From NCBI GenBank assembly GCA_002803225.1, contig NXFV01000306.1:1-64000 (forward strand): a DNA stretch of 64,000 bases. Direction: 5' to 3'. Shown piece after piece: positions 2,211 to 54,720 of the stretch (within the stretch, counting starts at the first letter, position 1; every line of letters begins with the position of its first letter). The position numbers were made by a program, and so were the translations under genes. The notes below the pieces were generated by a model. The model saw only the letters and a list, made by a program, of their open reading frames with translations, did not search any database and was not told the DNA's origin. The stretch is from Gamarada debralockiae (taxonomy: Eukaryota > Ascomycota > Leotiomycetes > Helotiales > Hyphodiscaceae).

Positions 2211-2606
2211 TGTGTTCTGTTGAAGCTGCCAAAAAGGTAATATAAGCGGAAAGAAAATATAAGTTTGGGGTTGCAGGGATCGTCGGCAAAAGGTTTTACC
2301 GCGCCGGGAGCCAGATCGGTGGATATACTGAAGGAACACCAAGCTCCTTGAACACATCCAACGACGCCGCGTCGCTTTGAGAAGGACAACAATAATTGGC
2401 GCTGAAGGACTTCGAAGGTCTCGTCAACTGCGTACCCGGTGTATAAGTGAATCGGTTCGTTGAAGTAAATTATTCTGGCTTCGATGCCAGCTCATTGAGG
2501 GTGCTTTCAAAACTCGTAAGCTCCTCCTAATTCTTCCAAAAGCGCAAAAGGATTGTAGCCTAACGCATTCCCAGAGTCGACTCTTTCCGTAACATATCCA
2601 CTCGAA
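2211..2606. promoter_or_regulatory. Divergent promoter region, LCP5 / EMP70-like
   Basis: A 396-bp gap between two divergently transcribed housekeeping genes. It must hold both promoters and 5' UTRs. I see no convincing TATA box or other named motif. Confidence 0.4.
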
Positions 2607-4587
2607 ATGCGTTTACGGAACCTCTCGCCTTCTGCGGCGCTCCTTGCGACTCTCCTCGCCGCCCCAGAACTCTCCTTAGCTTTCTACCTACCAGGTGTTG
2701 CGCCAACATCATATAAAAAGGGGGACTTAGTACCTCTGAATGTCAACAGCCTCACGCCCGTGGGCTCACAAACCGATGGCACATTACGATCAGTCGTCTC
2801 ATTCGATTACTACCACCCTGCCTTCCACTTCTGCCGACCAAAACCCAAGCCCGAATATGTATCAGAAAGTCTAGGCAGCATCCTATTTGGAGACCGAATA
2901 ATGACGTCCCCTTTTGAGCTCCACATGGCGGACAATAGTACATTCTGCAAGGTTCTATGCGACGTGAAGTTCCAAGACAAAGAGGCGGGTTTTGTCAATC
3001 GACGAATAGCGCAAGGCTACGCGCTGAATTGGCTTGTTGACGGATTGCCTGCTGGACAACTGATCGAGGACGAGGTTACGAAAACGAGGTTTTACAGTCA
3101 AGGATTTGCGTTGGGGAGCAACGACCAGAAGGAAATGCATCTGAACAATCATTATGATATTCTGATTGATTACCACAAATTCTCTGATGACCAGTATCGT
3201 GTGGTTGGGGTTATTGTGCAGCCGGACTCGAGGGCGAGCCAGGATGGACTGGCCTGTGGAGAAGGTGGACCACCTTTGATTCTAGACGACAATGAAAATT
3301 CCGAAACTGCTGTTCAATGGACCTACAGCGTATACTGGATCGAATCGTCGACCGCGTGGGCTACCAGATGGGACAAATACTTGCATGTTTTCGACCCTAA
3401 GATCCACTGGTTCTCGCTCATCAATTCGGCAATTATTGTTATCTTTCTGACGATCACTGTTGTCTCGATTCTCTTGCGAGCCTTGAGAAAAGACATCCAA
3501 AGATACAATCGCCTGGACTCGATCAACCTGGACGATTTATCGGGAACATCTGCTGCTATTGAGGATGGCGTGCAAGAGGATTCCGGGTGGAAGTTAGTAC
3601 ACGGCGATGTTTTCCGAACACCAGGTTCTCCACTCATCTTGAGCGTGTTCCTTGGGAATGGCGCTCAACTTTTCGTCATGACCGGGTTGACCATTGCCTT
3701 CGCTCTTCTAGGATTCCTTTCTCCATCAAACCGTGGCTCCTTAGGCACAATCATGATTTTGCTCTACACCATTCTCGGCTTCATCGGTGGCTACGTCTCT
3801 GCACGTGTCTACAAGTCATTCGGTGGTGAAAAGTGGAAGCTCAACATCGCACTCACCCCCTCACTCGTCCCAGGCATCGTGTTCGGCACTTTCTTTCTAT
3901 TGAACCTGTTCCTCTGGTTCAAGGAATCTTCCGGAGCAGTTCCCTTTACCACCATGCTTGTTATTGTCGGCATCTGGTTCCTGATCTCTGTTCCCCTTTC
4001 ATTCGCCGGATCTTGGGTGGGATTCCGCCAACCACCCATCGCACCACCTGTTCGCACCAACCAGATCCCCCGTCAAATTCCTCCAAGCACAACGTACATG
4101 CGACCCATTCCATCCATGCTACTTGTCGGTATTCTCCCATTCGGTGCCATCTTTGTGGAGCTGTACTTCATCATGTCGTCCATCTGGTTCAGCAAGGTTT
4201 ACTACATGTTTGGCTTCCTATTCCTCTGCTACGGACTCATGATCATCACTTGCGCCGCAGTGACAGTTCTCATGGTGTACTTCTTACTCTGCAGTGAGAA
4301 CTACCATTGGCATTGGAGAGCATTTATGACTGCTGGTGCGTCAGCTGGATATGTATTTGCGAATGCGTTAATTTATTGGATCACGAAGCTGCAATTGGGG
4401 GGTCTTACTGGGAGTGTTCTATACATTGGATATAGTGCGCTGATTTCCTTCCTTTTCTTCATCCTTACTGGTAAGTCGTCCCACTCCCTTTCTGCAAACT
4501 CAGCAGCTAACTTGAACAGGCACCATCGGATTCTTTGCCAGCTGGGCGTTCGTGCAGAAGATTTACGGATCTATCAAGATCGACTAA
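2607..4587 (+). CDS. EMP70: Transmembrane 9 superfamily (EMP70/TMN) endomembrane protein
   Basis: Two exons (2607-4470, 4520-4587) with a 49-nt GTAAGT...ACAG intron give 643 aa, the normal length for the family. A cleavable signal peptide (ALLATLLAAPELSLAFYLPG) is followed by the lumenal domain, with conserved text such as YYHPAFHFCRPKP, SLGSILFGDRI and FCKVLC. Nine transmembrane helices follow from about residue 270. The spliced C-terminus reads GFFASWAFVQKIYGSIKID, ending in the KxD/E COPI-binding signal characteristic of TM9SF proteins, which is lost if the intron is ignored. Family members act in Golgi/endosome sorting of membrane proteins, cell adhesion and metal homeostasis. The symbol marks the family; which yeast paralogue (EMP70, TMN2, TMN3) is closest cannot be decided here. 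Confidence 0.9.
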
Positions 4588-5034
4588 GATCACAATGTGA
4601 AAGAGGGAAGAGGCATGTTGACGCGGAGATGGAAGAAAACACCGGTGCGGGTTTTATTTTGTTTGTACGATACGCTGGAATTTCAAAACATTTCAGTGGT
4701 GAAGCGGGAAGGGTGGCGATGGCGTCTGCTTTTGGTTCATGTGGCAGTAGACAAATAATCTCTTTCGCATTCCCACTACATGAAAACGTTGATATGTTGC
4801 TCGTGATGTGAGAAGAAATCTAACAAGTGAATTAAAACCCAGGCAGACTCGTATACTGCACAAAAGTTTGAATGGCATATCGCACACTATCTAGAGCAGA
4901 TTTCTCATCAAGATGCGGCTGTGAGGAAGGCTGTACATGTCAAGGATCTTCAAATACAATGAGCCTCGACCAGGAGAAATCATCAATTATCCATCTATCC
5001 CCCCACCCCAACACCACTATTTTGTCTTGGTATC
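4588..5034. other. Convergent intergenic region
   Basis: Shared 3' flank of the convergent EMP70-like and MED4 genes. It probably carries both 3' UTRs. No further gene or repeat seen. Confidence 0.5.
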
Positions 5035-6098
5035 TCACTCAGAATCATCGTCATCGTCAAAAGTCTCCAACTGGAACACCTTCGGGCGTTCCTCCCTCCT
5101 CTCCCCACCAGCACTTCCGCTAACACTCATGCGTCTCTCCATCTCTCTCCTCCTCTCCTCTTCCAACCTAGCCCTTTCCTCAGCCTGTACTCTCTCCTCT
5201 TCCTCCACAATCCTCTTCCGTTCCGCCTCCAACTCTGCACCCCGCTCAGGATCAAACGTCGCCGGATCCTCTCCCCGATCAAGCAGTACCTGAATAGTAG
5301 CCAACGCGCCCCGCTTGATATCATGCTCCGCCGGCCACGGAAAGAAAGGTACCTGTGCAAGCGGGTTTAAAGACTGTTGCCATTCTTGCGGAAGCGCCGT
5401 CGTGGAATTGGACGTGTCTTGTGATGTTTGCGCTTGTGTAACTCCCCCGGCGTTTGAAGGCGTCGCAGAATCAATTTCCATCGCCGTGCCATTATTGCTC
5501 ACACCTACATTGCCATCTGTGATGATGCCATTACTGCCGTTTGTAGCTGCCACAGGTGTAGTAGTGCCGTTTGTTTGCGGCTCGGATTTGTCCTTCGTCG
5601 GACTGGAGGCTCCCGCCTCGGCAGCTCCTATTTCAGTTGTCTCGCGATACGTAGCTGGGAGGGTTTTTTCGGATATTTTCTTTGCGTAGCTTAAGAGTTC
5701 GGAGTAGGAGACCGGATTTGTAGTTTCGGGGAAGACAGTGGAGGGGGTGTTGATGAGGGCGCGACGGGTGTCGGTTAGGAGGGTGAGAGTCTCGCGGATT
5801 TGGGTGTCAAGGGTGGAGGAGGTGGAGCGGAGGGAGATAATCTTCTCGTGGTTACGCTGATGGAGGGATACTGTAGTTGTTAGCTTTGGCCGGTGGAAGG
5901 GGAGGGTGGGGATGTACGTTGTTCAAGGCCTTGGTTGAGCTCTGCGTCGGCGGTCAATAGATCGGTTGCATGAGCTGGTGTAGGGTTGTAAGTTGAGATT
6001 GAGGTTATTAGCGTCTGCAGAGCTTTCTCTACTCGCTCGAATCGAGCGTCAATGATTTTGTCCATGGTTGACCAGGAAGGCGCTATGTTGATTGACAA
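5035..6098 (-). CDS. MED4: Mediator complex subunit 4
   Basis: Two exons (6098-5918, 5870-5035) joined by a 47-nt intron (GTACAT...CTACAG) give 338 aa. Splicing yields MDKIIDARFERVEKALQTLI, then AELNQGLEQLSLHQRNHEKI, the coiled-coil start typical of fungal MED4 (Mediator middle module, RNA polymerase II transcription). The central part holds the YSELLSYAKKISEKTLPATY segment. Later come the conserved PFFPWPAEHDIKRGAL motif, a charged coiled coil rich in Glu/Arg, and an acidic tail (FDDDDDSE). The first ATG is at 6098, but a second at 6065 gives the MDKIIDARFERVEKAL start and may be the real one. Convergent with the EMP70-like gene. Confidence 0.85.
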
Positions 6099-47711: not shown

Positions 47712-48994
47712 GAGTTGAATGGGATTGCAGGCGGCGTTTGCTGACTCCAAATTAGAGATGGCTTATGATATATACTTGAAAAGAGCTATCCGGACCTGGA
47801 CGCTGCCGCCTCTGTACTTCCACACTCATGATGTAACGCCAACGAATACCTTGCATTGAACCCCACAAAATTGATGGAAGACGTCAGACAAGTAACTTCT
47901 AAGAGGGTGCATTCGCAAATGGTCGACAGTTTGTCAAGGGTTCTTTGTTGTGATTCGCATCTAGTGATGTGGAGTGATTTCCGTGAACCTCCTCGTCATT
48001 GAATCAGGGTTCATTCGACCCACATTGGCCCCGCCGTTGCAAATTTCATGTGAAGGTGAAGTCATCCAAAGATAACCAAGGCGTGAGGCAGTTTAATACA
48101 CTTGAAACCCCGATCCAACGAGCTAATTTAACCTATTAAGCTTGATCTGCCTCCAGAACATGAGGGCACTGAGTTGGGCGAAGGAAATATCAGAAAAGGG
48201 GCCAAGGCAAATGGAAGTGTTGCGATAGGACGGCTATGTCATACGCCGCTGCAGCCGTGGAGGAGCAACTGGCTATCATCTACTTTGTACACTACTTTTG
48301 GGGAGGACTTTAGAATGGACGCTGCTATCTGACGCTAAAAGGATCTCACTGGAAGCAAGAAGGGTATCCTTCGTCATGCCCATGAATTCAGTGAAGAGAA
48401 AATACATTACTTCCGAACTTTCCTTAAGTAGAAAGCTATGCAGGGTTTAAATACCAATCAATCAATGCTTCAAGACAGTGCGTAATTGCTCCTTCCCTCA
48501 ATTTTCCTTTTCTGCCATCGATCTGTTTGCAAGGCTCATCCGTCTACCGCTCTGAGCTCATAGCCCAAATATCATCCTTTGTGATCCTCCGACCAATTAG
48601 ATGCACCGTTACGTCACAACGGTTTCAAGTTATCAGCCCCAACTAGGAACACCCGAAATCTCATCCTTGTAACTCCAACAAAAACAATTTAAATTTCAAA
48701 ATGGAACAATTCTTATCTATTTTCTGTCTCCACTTTAGATCTAGTACTTCTACACTCTTTAATCTACGTAACTACTTTTCCACAAAATTTAGTACGGTTA
48801 ATTGATCACGCAGATATCTGAGGGGCGCGCGCGTGGCGGATCCGCCAATGACCCCGCTAATGCCGTAACCGGCCGTGGATATCACCCCAACAAAATCCGC
48901 CGACCCTTCGCACTATACTATTAACGCGACCTTACGTCACACGACCTTAAGACTCAAGATGGTTCATAGTCACGTATATTCGAGCCTGCTATAC
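47712..48994. other. Gene-poor region left of the NLR element
   Basis: About 1.3 kb with no gene recognised. Becomes AT-rich near 48690-48800, then a short GC patch (GGGGCGCGCGCGTGGCGGA), before the element border. Confidence 0.4.
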
Positions 48995-48996
48995 TA

Positions 48997-49080
48997 CAGT
49001 AAAAGGCGAATTGAGTGTCGCGAATTTTTTAGTTAAATCTTTTAAGCGGGCTCCACTTTTGGACTTTGTGGCTGTGCACC
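48997..49080 (+). repeat. Left terminal inverted repeat of the NLR element
   Basis: About 85 bp, the inverted copy of 53967-54050; the outermost 50 bp are identical. Confidence 0.9.
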
Positions 49081-49379
49081 CCTGCCGAGTCTGTAACTGA
49101 AAGTACCGTCGCTACCCACAGAGTAGCGCGAGGGAGGAAAGGCGGCCGACCGTTTTGCCGCCATCAACCCTCTTATATTATCCTCTACGATTTCATGAGA
49201 GACGCGAAACAGCGAGAATGTTTTAAGCTGAATAATATATATGTTGCTTGTAATACTGTACTATCCAGTAGTACTGTAATTTAGCAATCTTAGTGTAGTA
49301 ACTTATATAAACAACTGCTCCCCCAAGGCCCTCTCTATCAAAGTTATGAAAATTAATATAATTTAATTGAAAGGCCGTA

Positions 49380-52300
49380 TTACAGAAACAACTTTTGCAG
49401 CCCATAAAAGTCTTCTGGTTGAAGTGCCCCATGTATTCTTAAGAGCCGTTCTACCCTTTCATGTCCATAAAGCGATGCTAATTGTAAGGCGGTCCAGCCG
49501 CTGCTGTTCTCCGAGTTAATATTTACACTATTATTAAGTAGTAGCTGTACGACCTCGAGGTGCCCGCTCTGCGAGGCCCAGCAGAGTGACGTCCATCCGT
49601 CACTAGTAGTAGCATTAATATCGGCGCCCTTCTCGAGCAGTAGCTGCATGACCTTGAGGTGCCTGTTCTCTGAGGCCAAGTGGAGTAGTGTCCATCCGTT
49701 ACGAGTAGTAGTATTCATATCGGCGCCCTTCTCGAGTAGTAGCTGCACGACCTCGAGGTGCCCGTTCTCTGAGGCCGATTGGAGTGGCGTTAATCCGTAG
49801 CGAGCAGCATTGACATCGGCGCCCTTCTCGAGCAGCAGCTGCACGACCTTGAGGCGTCCGTTGTGTGAGGCCCAGTAGAGTGGCGTCGATCCGTAGCGAG
49901 CAGTATTCATATCGGCGCCCTTCTCGAGTAGTAGCTGCACGACCTCGAGGTGCCCGTTCTCTGAGGCCGATTGGAGTGGCGTTAATCCGTAGCGAGCAGC
50001 ATTGACATCGGCGCCCTTCTCGAGCAGCAGCTGCACGACCTTGAGGCGTCCGTTGTGTGAGGCCCAGTAGAGTGGCGTCCGTCCGTTGCGAGCAGCATTG
50101 ACATCGGCGCCCTTCTCGAGTAGCAGCTGCACGACCTCGAGGTGCCCGTTGTGTGAGGCCCAGTGGAGTGGCGTCGATCGGTAGCGAGCGGTATTCGTAT
50201 CGGCGCCCTTCTCGAGTAGCAGCTGCACGACCTCGAGGTGCCCGTTGTGTGAGGCCCAGTGGAGTGGCGTCATTCCGTAGCGAGCAGTATTCATATCGGC
50301 GCCCTTCTCGAGCAGTAGCTGCACGACCTCGAGGTGCCCGTTCTCTGAGGCCCGGTAGAGTGGCGTCGATTCGTCACTATTAGTAGTGTTAATATCGGCG
50401 CCCTTCTCGAGCAGTAGCTGCACGGCCTCGAGGTGCCTGTTCCCTGAGGCCCAGTGGAGTGGCGTCCATCCGTCACTAGTAGCAGCATTGACATCGGCGC
50501 CCTTCTCGAGCAGTAGCTGCATGACCTCGAGGTGCCCGCTCTGCGAGGCCCAGTGGAGTGGCGTCCATCCGTCACTAGTAGCAGCATTGACATCGGCGCC
50601 CTTCTCGAGCAGTAGCTGCATGACCTCGAGGTGCCCGCTCTGCGAGGCCCATTGGAGTGGCGTCGATCCGTCACTAGTAGCAGTATTTATATCGGCGCCC
50701 TTCTCGAGCAGCAGCTGTACGATCTTGAGGTGCCCGTTCCCTGAGGCCCAGTGGAGTGGCGTCCATCCGACACTATCAGTAGCATTGACATCGGCGCCCT
50801 TCTCGAGCAGCAGCTGCACGACCTTGAGGTGCCCGTTCCGCGAGGCCCAGTAGAGTGGCGTCTGTCCGTCACTATCAGCAGCATTGACATCGGCGCCCTT
50901 CTCGAGCAGCAGCTGCACGACCTCAAGGTGCCCGTTCCGCGAGGCCCAGTGGAGTGGCGTCGATCCGTCACTAGCAGTAGCATTGACATCTGCGCCCTTC
51001 TCGAGTAGCTGCTGCACGACGGCCTGAATTCCAAAGAATGCTACCAAATACAGCCCTGTTATATTCTTTGGGAACCGTTGGCTGTACCCTGTATCTGATG
51101 AGTATAGCTTCTTGGCTAGGAGGCCCTGACTCGATGCCTCTAATTGGGCTTTTCTCTCAAGAAAATTATTGACTTCCGGGATTAGTATAAAAGCCTTCTG
51201 AGCGTGGTAGCCCCAATTATGTGCTGCATAGTCGTATAGCTTATTCGATTGAAGCCGTTGCTCAAACTCGTTATTATTCTGACAAATCCCATTCTCGAAC
51301 TCATTAAATGAGAGGTATGTAACACAAGTTGCTGTGATCTCACTCTCAGCCTTTGGGGACCATTGGCTTTGTGTTCGCTCGAAGTACTCTTGTGTTGTGT
51401 AATGGACTAATCGAATGATACTACTCTCTTCGTCGATAGTAACTAACCCCGCACAAACAGAGACCATGTCTTCACTCTGTGGTAGATTCTCTTCATCAAG
51501 CTTAGAGTCGCCAATCTCTATAGCAAGGGCGTGCTGGAGTTCTAATATAGTTAATGGTCTCTTTGCACACGTGATCCAGGACAAGACTTGTTTTGCTAGC
51601 TCTTCTTGGTCGTGTAGCTGCCCTTCGATACGATCCATTGCGTCATTATATGCACAATCATATGTATTCGTTCCTATATGTAGTTTTGCAATAGCGGCTC
51701 GGATAGCTTTAGCTGATCTCTTTCCAATTAGAGAATCGAGATGGAGCTGTGCAAGAAGAAACCTTTAAATAGGTTAGCACTTAGTCTTCTATATAGAGAA
51801 TATAAGGAACTTACATTCCCTTGACTAGTAGCACAATCCCAGTTTTGATTTCTTTTTGTAGGTCTGGGTTACGACCAACAAAAGCTGGGAGTCGATACAT
51901 ACAACCATCGAGATATCGTCGGACATCTTCCTCACTCGCACGAATCTCTAGTGAAATGCTCTCTTCAAACCTCTCCGTAACCTCAGGCAAGAATCTTGAA
52001 GTCGCAAAGACATTTGCACTTGACTTAACCTGAGCTAAGAAGATCTCTGTTAAGAGTCTGGTTCGGCATCCATCAGTCACTTGACACTCGTCGAGTGCGT
52101 CGATAATGATAAAGACCCTTGAAAACATTGTAGTGACAGACTGAAGCGTTTTTGATATTTCATCAAATAATGGCCGTGTTCGTTTGATCTTGTGTTTTTC
52201 ATACAGAGCTTTCACACTCTCTGGTAAAGAAACCCTCTCCTGGCTCAGCTGCTTTAATAGGCTTGCAAGCAAGCTATCAGCCTTCTGTTCGTCTTGCCGC

Positions 52301-53157
52301 CGGAAGTTGCAATAGAGGTACGCAATGCCAATGTCTGCCTCCCTCCGGAAGCGCATGGCCAAATCATCAATGGTAATCGCAGTAAGAATTGTCTTCCCGG
52401 CTCCAGGCATCCCAGGACAAAACAGTGTCTTCTTTGGGGTTTGCACCCATGTCTGATATTCATCCGAATCAATAAGCCATTGCCCAGTCCCCGCTTCTCG
52501 TCGACTAATGAAATCGCTTTGCTCTGGCGCATAATCGACAGTAGTGAGCCACTCGAGAATGGTCTGCCGCTCTTCGCGATGCTCTCGGTCATCTTGGCGC
52601 TCATTCAAGCGATCCACAGCCACTTTCGTAGCTAGGGAGGTTTGGCTAAAGATATTCAGTCAGATTGAATTGTATATAAATGATAATGCGCAATTACCTG
52701 GCAAGTTTTCCTTGGAACGCATTTAACAGAGTAACGTTTGCCACGATACGGCTCCGTAGATCGCGTATATCATCCGGCTCCCACTTTAACCTCTTCCATA
52801 CTCTCTTTATACTTCTACCAACGCCCTTTAATCCTGACTCAAGCTCGCGATACTTGTCAAGTGTAAGTTCTAGCTTCTCGAGGACGTTTCGACAGCCGCT
52901 TGCGATCTCGTGGAGCTCTTTCGTGTCTTCGTTGTTAAGCTCTCGTCCTGATAAGACTTCGAGGTCTTGAAGAACAATTGAAAGGCTTCTGACTCTATTA
53001 TTTGAAAATAAATTAGCGCTAGTCATTAACTTGACAGTATCCTATACTCATCGGAAATGTCCTTGAACTGGTCAGGGGCGTCGATGAATTCCTTCCGGAT
53101 CCTGATTGCAAGCTCGATCACTGCGATAAAATCACCGACGCTAAAACCAAAACTCAT
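49380..53157 (-). CDS. NACHT-ankyrin NLR-like (STAND) protein
   Basis: Four exons (53157-53048, 52994-52698, 52645-51815, 51762-49380) with 52-53 nt introns give 1,206 aa with no interruption. Residues 1-135 form a helical N-terminal domain (MSFGFSVGDFIAVIELAIRI, DEVRSLSIVLQDLEV) typical of fungal NLRs. The NACHT domain has a P-loop GMPGAGKT (about 214-221), Walker B VFIIIDALDEC (313-323) and downstream helical segments. From about residue 649 there are 16 full ankyrin repeats plus a partial first one, nearly all ending LLLEKGAD. Fungal proteins of this layout mediate non-self recognition and regulated cell death, with fast-evolving repeats as the sensor. The gene lies wholly inside the TIR-bounded element. 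The ligand and the exact N-domain class are not determinable here. Confidence 0.88.
49420..51060 (-). repeat. Homogenised ankyrin-coding tandem array
   Basis: About 16 units of 96-99 bp inside the NLR gene, many near identical at DNA level. A two-repeat block of 192 bp is duplicated in tandem (about 49740-49931 and 49932-50123, essentially identical). Confidence 0.9.
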
Positions 53158-53966
53158 TGTGATAGCAGGTACAGCCCTGTTATTAGCATAGGATAAGGCA
53201 GGCTAAATGGAGAGTAGATGGAGATGAAGCAGAGAATAAAGAAAAGTCGTTCTGCAGCTTCGCAAAGAAGATCGTCTGCACTCAGCCGCACGAGGCTGGA
53301 TGCGCCGGTGAGGCAGACTCGGGCATGATGCGCTGGCCATGTTGGACTTGCATAGGAGACAGAGATTGTCCACTTAGGACATATGAAGCCAAGCTGAGAA
53401 GCTAGAAGGGTTACCGACAACATTCGAAATGCTCTGGTCAGAGTAGTCCTATAGTAGCCTTGTGCATGGCCACCGCACTCTACATGCAATCGTATAGAGA
53501 TTGCAACGAAGGCTGAGCGGACACATTCTTGCCGCCGGTGCGAGTATCTGGGGTCTTACACAGCGTCTGCTATAAAATCCGCCCATTCTCCATGTTCGAG
53601 AATAGTTCTAATAGGAATTAAAGAAGGTCGAAGTTCTTGGATCGCGCAGTGGTCTTGGATATTATGTGAAACCCCGTAGAAACTCCGAGCCACGTGTCCT
53701 CTCCGTCGACAACCTCCTTGCTGCTTGCCTCGATACTTGTCAATTTAGAAGGCATCCCATCATGGAAAATACTACCTTTGATTGGCTCGACAATAATTAG
53801 CTGTGCAGCATTGATGTGCGACACCATGGTCGCTGACGCGAAACGCGCTGACTCTAGCGGAGTGGAAAAGGAGAATGAAAGGATAGGATTTGCCAATTCT
53901 GCCCTCAAGTCCCTCGCTCCGCTCTACGGTTATTAGCGGCGGTACCTTGGGGTACAAACTGGGGTG
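53158..53966. other. 5' flank of the NLR inside the element
   Basis: Presumed NLR promoter. It also holds an open minus-strand frame (53908-53618; MVSHINAAQLIIVEPIKGSI, DGEDTWLGVSTGFHIISKTT) that I cannot assign; it could be captured host sequence or non-coding. Confidence 0.35.
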
Positions 53967-54050
53967 GGTGCACAGCCACGAGGTCCAAAAGTGGCGGCCC
54001 CTTAAAAGATTTAACTAAAAAATTCGCGACACTCAATTCGCCTTTTACTG
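53967..54050 (-). repeat. Right terminal inverted repeat of the NLR element
   Basis: Inverted copy of 48997-49080; followed by TA at 54051-54052. Confidence 0.9.
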
Positions 54051-54059
54051 TAGTTTGTC

Positions 54060-54720
54060 TTCCCCTAGTCTATAATAGTCACAGGCACTAGCTATTACCA
54101 CGCCCCTCCTTCGGTAGTGGCATCAGGAAGAGGTCTAGTAGGACTAAAGCTCCTTGATAGCCAAAGATGTAGTTTCGTACAGTATTATATATCAGGACAA
54201 GCTCTAAGTAGTCCTTGTCATCCTCACCTTCAACAATCGGGTGATTACTAGCCTCGACAGCCGCAGCTGCTTCCTTCTAGCGCTTACGCGGCTGCTCCTT
54301 TACTGCCGCTGCCGCTGCCTTCCTCTTCCTCACCTTCTCCTCATCTAGCCAGCTGCCCTGCGCAGAGCGCGCTAGGCAGCCTTCTCCTTGATAAAGAGTA
54401 GTAGCTTGCCCTCATCGACCTAGTCCCCTAGGAGGTACTTACCACCAGGAGGGAAGCTTTGCGCAGCGCACCAGGTCCTCCACTCCTTCTGCTTTGGAGC
54501 GTAGCTCCTAGCTGTATTAGGCGGCCAGTGCGTATAGTAGTACTCTAGTGTCTCGTCGCGTACTGCCTGGATCCTAGCCTCGAGCTCTAGGGTCAAAAAA
54601 GGGAAAGAGAGGGGGGGGGAGGGGGGCACGACTGTAGGAGCAGCAAGAGGAGCCAAGAGGTCTCTGGCAGTACAGGTGCCATGAATAGCGCGTCAGCTAG
54701 GATAGCTGCCATGATCAGTA
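54060..54720 (-). mobile_element. Crypton-like (GCR1-type tyrosine recombinase) relic with stops
   Basis: The minus strand reads MAAILADALFMAPVLPETSW, then a frame change to ELEARIQAVRDETLEYYYTH, WPPNTARSYAPKQKEWRTWC and AAQSFPPGGKYLLGD. This is the N-terminal region common to fungal Crypton-type proteins (GCR1-like DNA-binding family). The frame then continues past TAG codons (VDEGKLLLFIKEKAA and later charged text) with further TAGs, a pattern expected when CAG becomes TAG through C-to-T change as in RIP. The recombinase core is absent. It abuts the right end of the NLR element. Confidence 0.6.

Follow-up and report, generated by a model that had tools for sequence, protein, structure and literature searches.

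A small Tc1/mariner-type transposon family in Gamarada debralockiae with NLR- and HET-type genes as its probable usual passengers

Fungi possess large repertoires of NOD-like receptor (NLR) and HET genes that differ greatly from strain to strain, and the turnover of these repertoires is an open question. Transposons of the Tc1/mariner type typically measure approximately 1.3–2.4 kb, and plant Pack-MULE and Pack-TIR elements, which are non-autonomous and bounded by terminal inverted repeats (TIRs), mostly hold gene fragments of all kinds. NACHT and HET genes have been described within Starships, and ToxhAT is a 14-kb type II DNA transposon carrying ToxA, according to PMC9594970. PMC9815663 also states that fungal NLRs can be transposon-carried, citing Starship work. 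In this study, a 64,000-nucleotide stretch of DNA from the fungus Gamarada debralockiae (contig NXFV01000306.1, positions 1 to 64,000; hereafter the window) was analyzed together with its source genome assembly (54.3 Mb, 1112 contigs). The window contains an element of 5058 bp (C107), extending from a TA at 48995 to a TA at 54052 and enclosing one NLR gene. This element very likely belongs to a family of small Tc1/mariner-type transposons in which an NLR- or HET-type gene is the usual passenger.

The family resembles Tc1/mariner elements (DD34E, DDE_3) in its TIRs, in a TA duplication revealed by empty sites, in a DD34E transposase located within the same ends of a single copy (C1084 only), and in having copies without a transposase. 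It differs from them in its length of 2.8–6.4 kb and in carrying a recognition gene of host type, which varies among the copies. Pack-MULE and Pack-TIR elements are likewise non-autonomous TIR elements with host gene sequence, but the present family holds several whole genes of one functional class. Starships likewise transport fungal NLR and HET genes; however, those described in the cited papers are 143 and 294 kb in length and linked to a DUF3435 tyrosine recombinase, which the 294-kb element lacks, whereas the elements described here are 3–6 kb, have TIR/TA boundaries and a DDE transposase remnant, and usually hold one passenger. ToxhAT, as presented in PMC9594970, is a compact class II transposon with a non-transposition gene in a fungus, but it is of the hAT type with one effector-type cargo, whereas this family is of the Tc1 type with several different recognition genes. 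No Tc1-type NLR element was found in a literature search of limited reach. Both the type of transposon and the class of cargo are known, and it is, cautiously put, their small dedicated combination that stands out.

Arm comparison and family alignment placed the left TIR of the window element, approximately 85 bp long and starting CAGTAAAAGGCGAATTGAGTGTCGC, at 48997–49081 (plus strand) and the right TIR at 53966–54050 (minus strand). The two TA dinucleotides of the target-site duplication lie at 48995–48996 and 54051–54052, according to the sequence itself and the alignment of empty copies. The inverted arms (48993–49081 and 53966–54054) are 94% complementary; both ends start TACAGTAAAAGG and are identical over 52 bases including the TA, which corresponds to 50 bases without it. 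This arm comparison bears out the initial annotation, which had described a TA on both sides and inverted ends of about 85 bp with the outer 50 bp identical. The same annotation had reported no transposase, and none was seen as an open reading frame (ORF) inside the element, though its right 265 bp (right subterminal region, 53787–54052, minus strand) share 72% identity with the transposase-side end of copy C634. Within this region, positions 53799–53903 very weakly resemble the beginning of an ORF that is a transposase remnant (E value, 0.01).

The only gene enclosed by the window element lies on the minus strand (49380–53157). Pfam analysis and gene modeling indicated an NLR with NPHP3_N (E value, 1.2e-37) and NACHT (E value, 3e-7) domains, a GPIID winged helix, and an array of approximately 15 ankyrin repeats, whereas the PigL_N-like match at the N-terminus was weak and below the cut-off (E value, 0.0013). 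The gene has the tripartite layout of a fungal NLR, namely an N-terminal domain, NACHT, and C-terminal repeats. The best-scoring gene models gave a spliced frame of approximately 1203–1210 amino acids (aa), running from an ATG at 53157 to a stop at 49380–49382, with introns near 53047–52986 (splice sites ambiguous), at 52697–52646, and at 51814–51763. An uninterrupted NACHT-ankyrin gene with three clean introns had been annotated; the open spliced frame and the three introns held, but the first intron could not be called clean. Within this genome, the paralogue closest to its NACHT part shares 66% identity with it. Among the 120 database matches listed, identity reached 93%, and the sole organism-named entry was an Oidiodendron maius homologue with 79% identity. 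Fragments of a relative of the window NLR were also observed at C604 (locus L019, 2–469) and at locus L029 (7543–7743), just outside the element end on C604.

The end sequence is not unique to the window. Searching the genome with the window end returned 17 places and with the majority end 24 places, and a 28-base end pattern with up to three mismatches occurred at 26 genome places, compared with 0 for the reversed control; there were also 0 matches in viral contigs. These 26 places consist of 12 paired ends, an extra left end on C37, five ends of contig-cut elements, seven partnerless ends, and a weak match on C848. The paired ends form six facing pairs, all bounded by TA, with lengths of 5058 bp (C107), 5803 bp (C634), 2821 bp (C951), 6389 bp (C1084), 3715 bp (C37), and 4054 bp (C576). 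Across 25 aligned ends, 21 columns are invariant, and a second end subtype at C576 (left), C283, and C62 has only the outer 55–60 bp in common with the others. A profile search of the examined loci identified no full-length partner ends for the unpaired copies; apart from ends already identified, its sole results were the weak C848 match and an end fragment of 17 bases that lies 400 bp inside C160. Among the compared stretches, the elements share a few hundred bases at most, the longest shared stretches being approximately 480 bp (66% identity) and 432 bp (75% identity). On C37, two left ends pointing the same way occur at 902 and 1042 (locus L012), separated by 140 bp, an arrangement such as insertion of one element into the end of another would leave.

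Empty insertion sites were found in other copies of the invaded repeats. A joined-flank search demonstrated that the left flank of the window element (48845–48994, plus strand) is part of an older repeat, which continues in the right flank (54053–54202, plus strand). When the flanks were joined with 150 bp per side and one TA, 13 of 44 rows spanned the junction in other genome copies, with one that passed it by 4 bases left out. The contiguous empty copies comprise the last 20 left-flank bases, the TA, and 45 to 85 right-flank bases. The rest of the left flank matches 1.6–2 kb farther upstream on some of the same contigs; therefore, either the window host copy is without a stretch or the others gained one. 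The insertion is present in none of 11 host-repeat copies aligned base by base, in which the site reads TA in seven and TG in four. For C951, 38 of 41 rows crossed the junction, with approximately 30–110 bases on the left side, and all four aligned empty copies have a TA and no insertion. For C1084, the junction was crossed by four of eight rows, and the site in four aligned copies without the insertion reads TA in one and CA in two and is diverged in the remaining one. These empty sites are paralogous, not allelic, and cover three of the six complete elements. They show that, in the window element, C951, and C1084, the ends and the cargo entered as one unit. The landing site of C951 is a repeat of approximately 270 bp with at least 38 copies (L036, 4545–4760, and 38 more places), which starts TACAGTAG at the insertion site and resembles the element end.

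A DDE_3 domain (E value, 5e-26) was identified near one end of C1084, its last D and E being separated by 34 residues (DD34E). C576, C283, and C634 retain remnants of the N-terminal part of the transposase at their ends (for C576, 62% identity over 99 aa), and related transposases of C513, C91, C812, C529, and C581 were 39–50% identical. A Tc1-like transposase is quite probably the motor of the family. The initial annotation had suggested a pogo/Tc1 affinity, of which the Tc1-like part was borne out by the transposase within the same ends of one copy and the pogo part was not. Its broader proposal, a compact TIR/TA vehicle with one NLR, was strengthened by the family of ends, the empty sites, and this Tc1-like transposase. 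The family is mostly non-autonomous.

Cousin elements with their own ends were also observed. C91 (locus L030, 3980–7261) and C513 (locus L031, 2173–5767) contain TA-bounded elements of 3.3–3.6 kb with ends TACARCCATAT.CATAACTAGTGT, each composed of a transposase and a convergent second gene that is common to both (40% identity over 84 aa); Pfam analysis of three ORFs of this second gene gave no match. They resemble the window family in a transposase approximately 43–45% identical, in TA-bounded TIRs, and in the convergent second gene, but differ in their end sequence and in that the second gene is the same in both and has no Pfam match. They were considered as autonomous partners of the window family and rejected on account of these different ends and this second gene. 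On C529 (18000–23941), a DDE_3 transposase of the same clade (1091–2070 of this segment, minus strand) and a PNP-NACHT NLR that has ankyrin-like repeats (2244–5941 of the segment, plus strand) are arranged back to back. No TIRs were found around this pair, the contig ending inside the NLR gene; it is possibly another unit of transposase and NLR with other ends.

Listing what each pair of ends encloses revealed a distinct NLR- or HET-type gene in five of the six complete elements, and such a passenger is the usual one where both ends are known. In addition to the window NLR, C634 holds a hydrolase-like/PNP and NB-ARC-TPR gene in two in-frame ORFs (673 and 898 aa), C951 a HET gene, and C576 a HET gene with a weak ankyrin match. 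The main ORF of C1084 has no Pfam match, yet over 165–174 aa it shares 53–63% identity with the HET regions of C180, C951, and C576; the first half of this HET gene (locus L011, 1412–2272) is inverted, the gene being split by a local inversion. Of the five contig-cut elements, C180 (HET-NACHT) and C1097 (patatin/NB-ARC/TPR) carry clear NLR/HET cargo, C112 (WD40) and C1096 (TPR) are only compatible with such cargo, and nothing was seen in the 690 bp present of C284.

This frequency was compared with the background of the genome, for which 150 HET genes were scored of 770 candidates, 150 NPHP3_N genes were scored of 358 candidates (154 matches), and 43 NB-ARC matches were obtained of 67. A 4.6-kb segment overlaps an NLR/HET gene in 3.2% of cases when the 347 listed matches are counted and in 10.5% when all 1195 candidates are taken as real. 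The corresponding probability that at least five of six elements carry such a gene by base rate is 1.9e-7 to 7e-5. Among the listed matches, an NLR/HET gene lies within 2.3 kb of 4 of 132 DDE_3 transposon places (7 of 132 within 3.2 kb) and of 1 of 38 copies of the C951 host repeat (2 of 38 within 3.2 kb). Because of these low rates, transposon DNA as such is not enriched for NLR/HET genes.

The elements also differ from the repeats that they invaded with regard to repeat-induced point mutation (RIP). Of seven host-repeat stretches of the window site, four are heavily RIP-mutated, with TpA/ApT of 1.77–1.85, (CpA+TpG)/(ApC+GpT) of 0.27–0.56, and a GC content of 29–41%, two are intermediate (1.48–1.58; 0.90–0.99), and one is unaffected (1.07; 1.24). 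The gene-less C297 stretch is RIP-like as well (1.55; 0.33; GC, 28%). Eight elements show no RIP signature, with TpA/ApT of 0.78–0.94, (CpA+TpG)/(ApC+GpT) of 1.11–1.26, and a GC content of 47–52%. The corresponding values for the whole window are 0.69 and 1.29, and RIP is likewise absent from the flanks of the window element. RIP has a threshold of length and identity for its triggering. Judging from these sequences, the elements may be spared because the cargo is single-copy and the common parts are too short or too diverged to trigger RIP, since the copies share only short or diverged stretches. In the proposed mechanism, a transposase of the C1084 lineage, which in this strain either works in trans today or has died out, would have cut and pasted the elements by acting through the conserved outer ends of approximately 60 bp. 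The ancestral form would have combined transposase and cargo, most copies would then have shed the transposase and either retained or swapped their cargo, and escape from RIP would let the cargo genes stay intact while mobile.

Several observations weigh against a family of mobile elements with NLR/HET cargo. The C1084 transposase is frame-broken, with its N-terminal part in a second frame, and no working autonomous copy was seen. Outside the window element, no end has its own partner as its single nearest relative in either direction, and the empty copies of the window site are contiguous over just 20 bases left of the TA. The complete element C37 holds only a ULD_2 (ubiquitin-like domain) gene. 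Among the seven partnerless ends, an NLR/HET-type gene lies inside only C604 (HeLo-kinase) and C49 (HET); no such gene was found in the ORFs scanned of C785 (four ORFs: DUF726 and three without match), C160 (three ORFs: MFS transporter, transcription-factor domain, and one without match), and C283 (four ORFs: FAD-binding, weak dehydrogenase-like, and two without match), and C297 and C62 contain no ORF of at least 90 aa except simple repeats. HET and NLR genes are very abundant in this genome, and among the listed NLR/HET matches, which form incomplete lists, only two of the six elements score. A HET gene lies 375 bp outside C37, another approximately 640 bp outside C1084, and an NLR fragment immediately beyond the C604 end; therefore, proximity plus capture is possible. 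These features, namely abundant HET/NLR genes that adjoin three copies from outside, the ULD_2 cargo of one complete copy, and five single ends without NLR/HET in the ORFs looked at, would suit passive capture, in which an ordinary non-autonomous Tc1/mariner family takes up nearby genes and NLR/HET genes dominate as they are numerous and situated in dynamic regions, the cargo having no role in the success of the element. The orientation of the cargo relative to the transposase-side end, which varies among copies, would suit it too. Set against this explanation are the five of six complete elements compared with a base rate of 3–10% and the rate of approximately 3% by listed matches at the two other repeat sets. 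C107, C634, C951, and C180 moreover hold large open genes, not fragments, and neither NLR nor HET was found among 10 other large ORFs of the window, of which six matched Sas10, EMP70, Cns1/TTC4 wheel, topoisomerase II, IBR, and DUF7932 and four had no Pfam match. Passive capture is accordingly regarded as a possible but somewhat doubtful account. That the cargo is kept by selection and not by chance capture is judged an even call.

The other explanations considered deny that the NLR travels in the small element. An immobile NLR could by chance lie between two facing but unrelated copies of some common, short inverted-repeat element, and unpaired ends do exist in the genome. However, six facing pairs were found within 7 kb, compared with approximately 0.02 expected for 26 random places, and the two ends of the window element are mutual nearest relatives. 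Ends are also more alike as a set when matched with their own partners than when re-paired, since only 10 of 720 pairings, the true one among them, reach at least the same degree of likeness. In addition, the host-repeat copies of three elements are without both ends and everything between them, together. Such a chance arrangement is thus extremely improbable. The NLRs could instead be cargo of a giant tyrosine-recombinase element, that is, a Starship, with incidental TIR/TA ends, as PMC9594970 reports NACHT and HET genes in Starships and PMC9815663 cites such evidence. Against it stand three units within the range of 2.8–6.4 kb inserted at single sites, one with a DDE_3 transposase inside, and window flanks that carry genes such as EMP70 and topoisomerase II. 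No DUF3435 captain was present among the 10 large window ORFs scanned, no genome-wide DUF3435 search having been made, and a Starship origin is considered very improbable. A mobile TIR/TA family with NLR/HET cargo, on the other hand, very probably exists in this genome.

A cut-and-paste vehicle of 3–6 kb with NLR/HET genes represents a concrete mechanism for the turnover of these repertoires, which can be scored as the presence or absence of a unit at TA sites. NLR and HET genes can thus travel in tiny vehicles and not in giant ones alone. The contrast with the RIP-mutated repeats of the same genome suggests how mobile genes stay intact in a RIP-active genome. The family may further represent an undescribed class of immune-gene cassette, in which a Tc1-type vehicle with short common ends, kept below RIP-visible length, would be specialized in recognition and cell-death genes that are exchanged between copies; this is a serious possibility, although we hold it at slightly less than an even chance. 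If true, the allorecognition repertoire of the fungus would be shuffled and spread by such cassettes.

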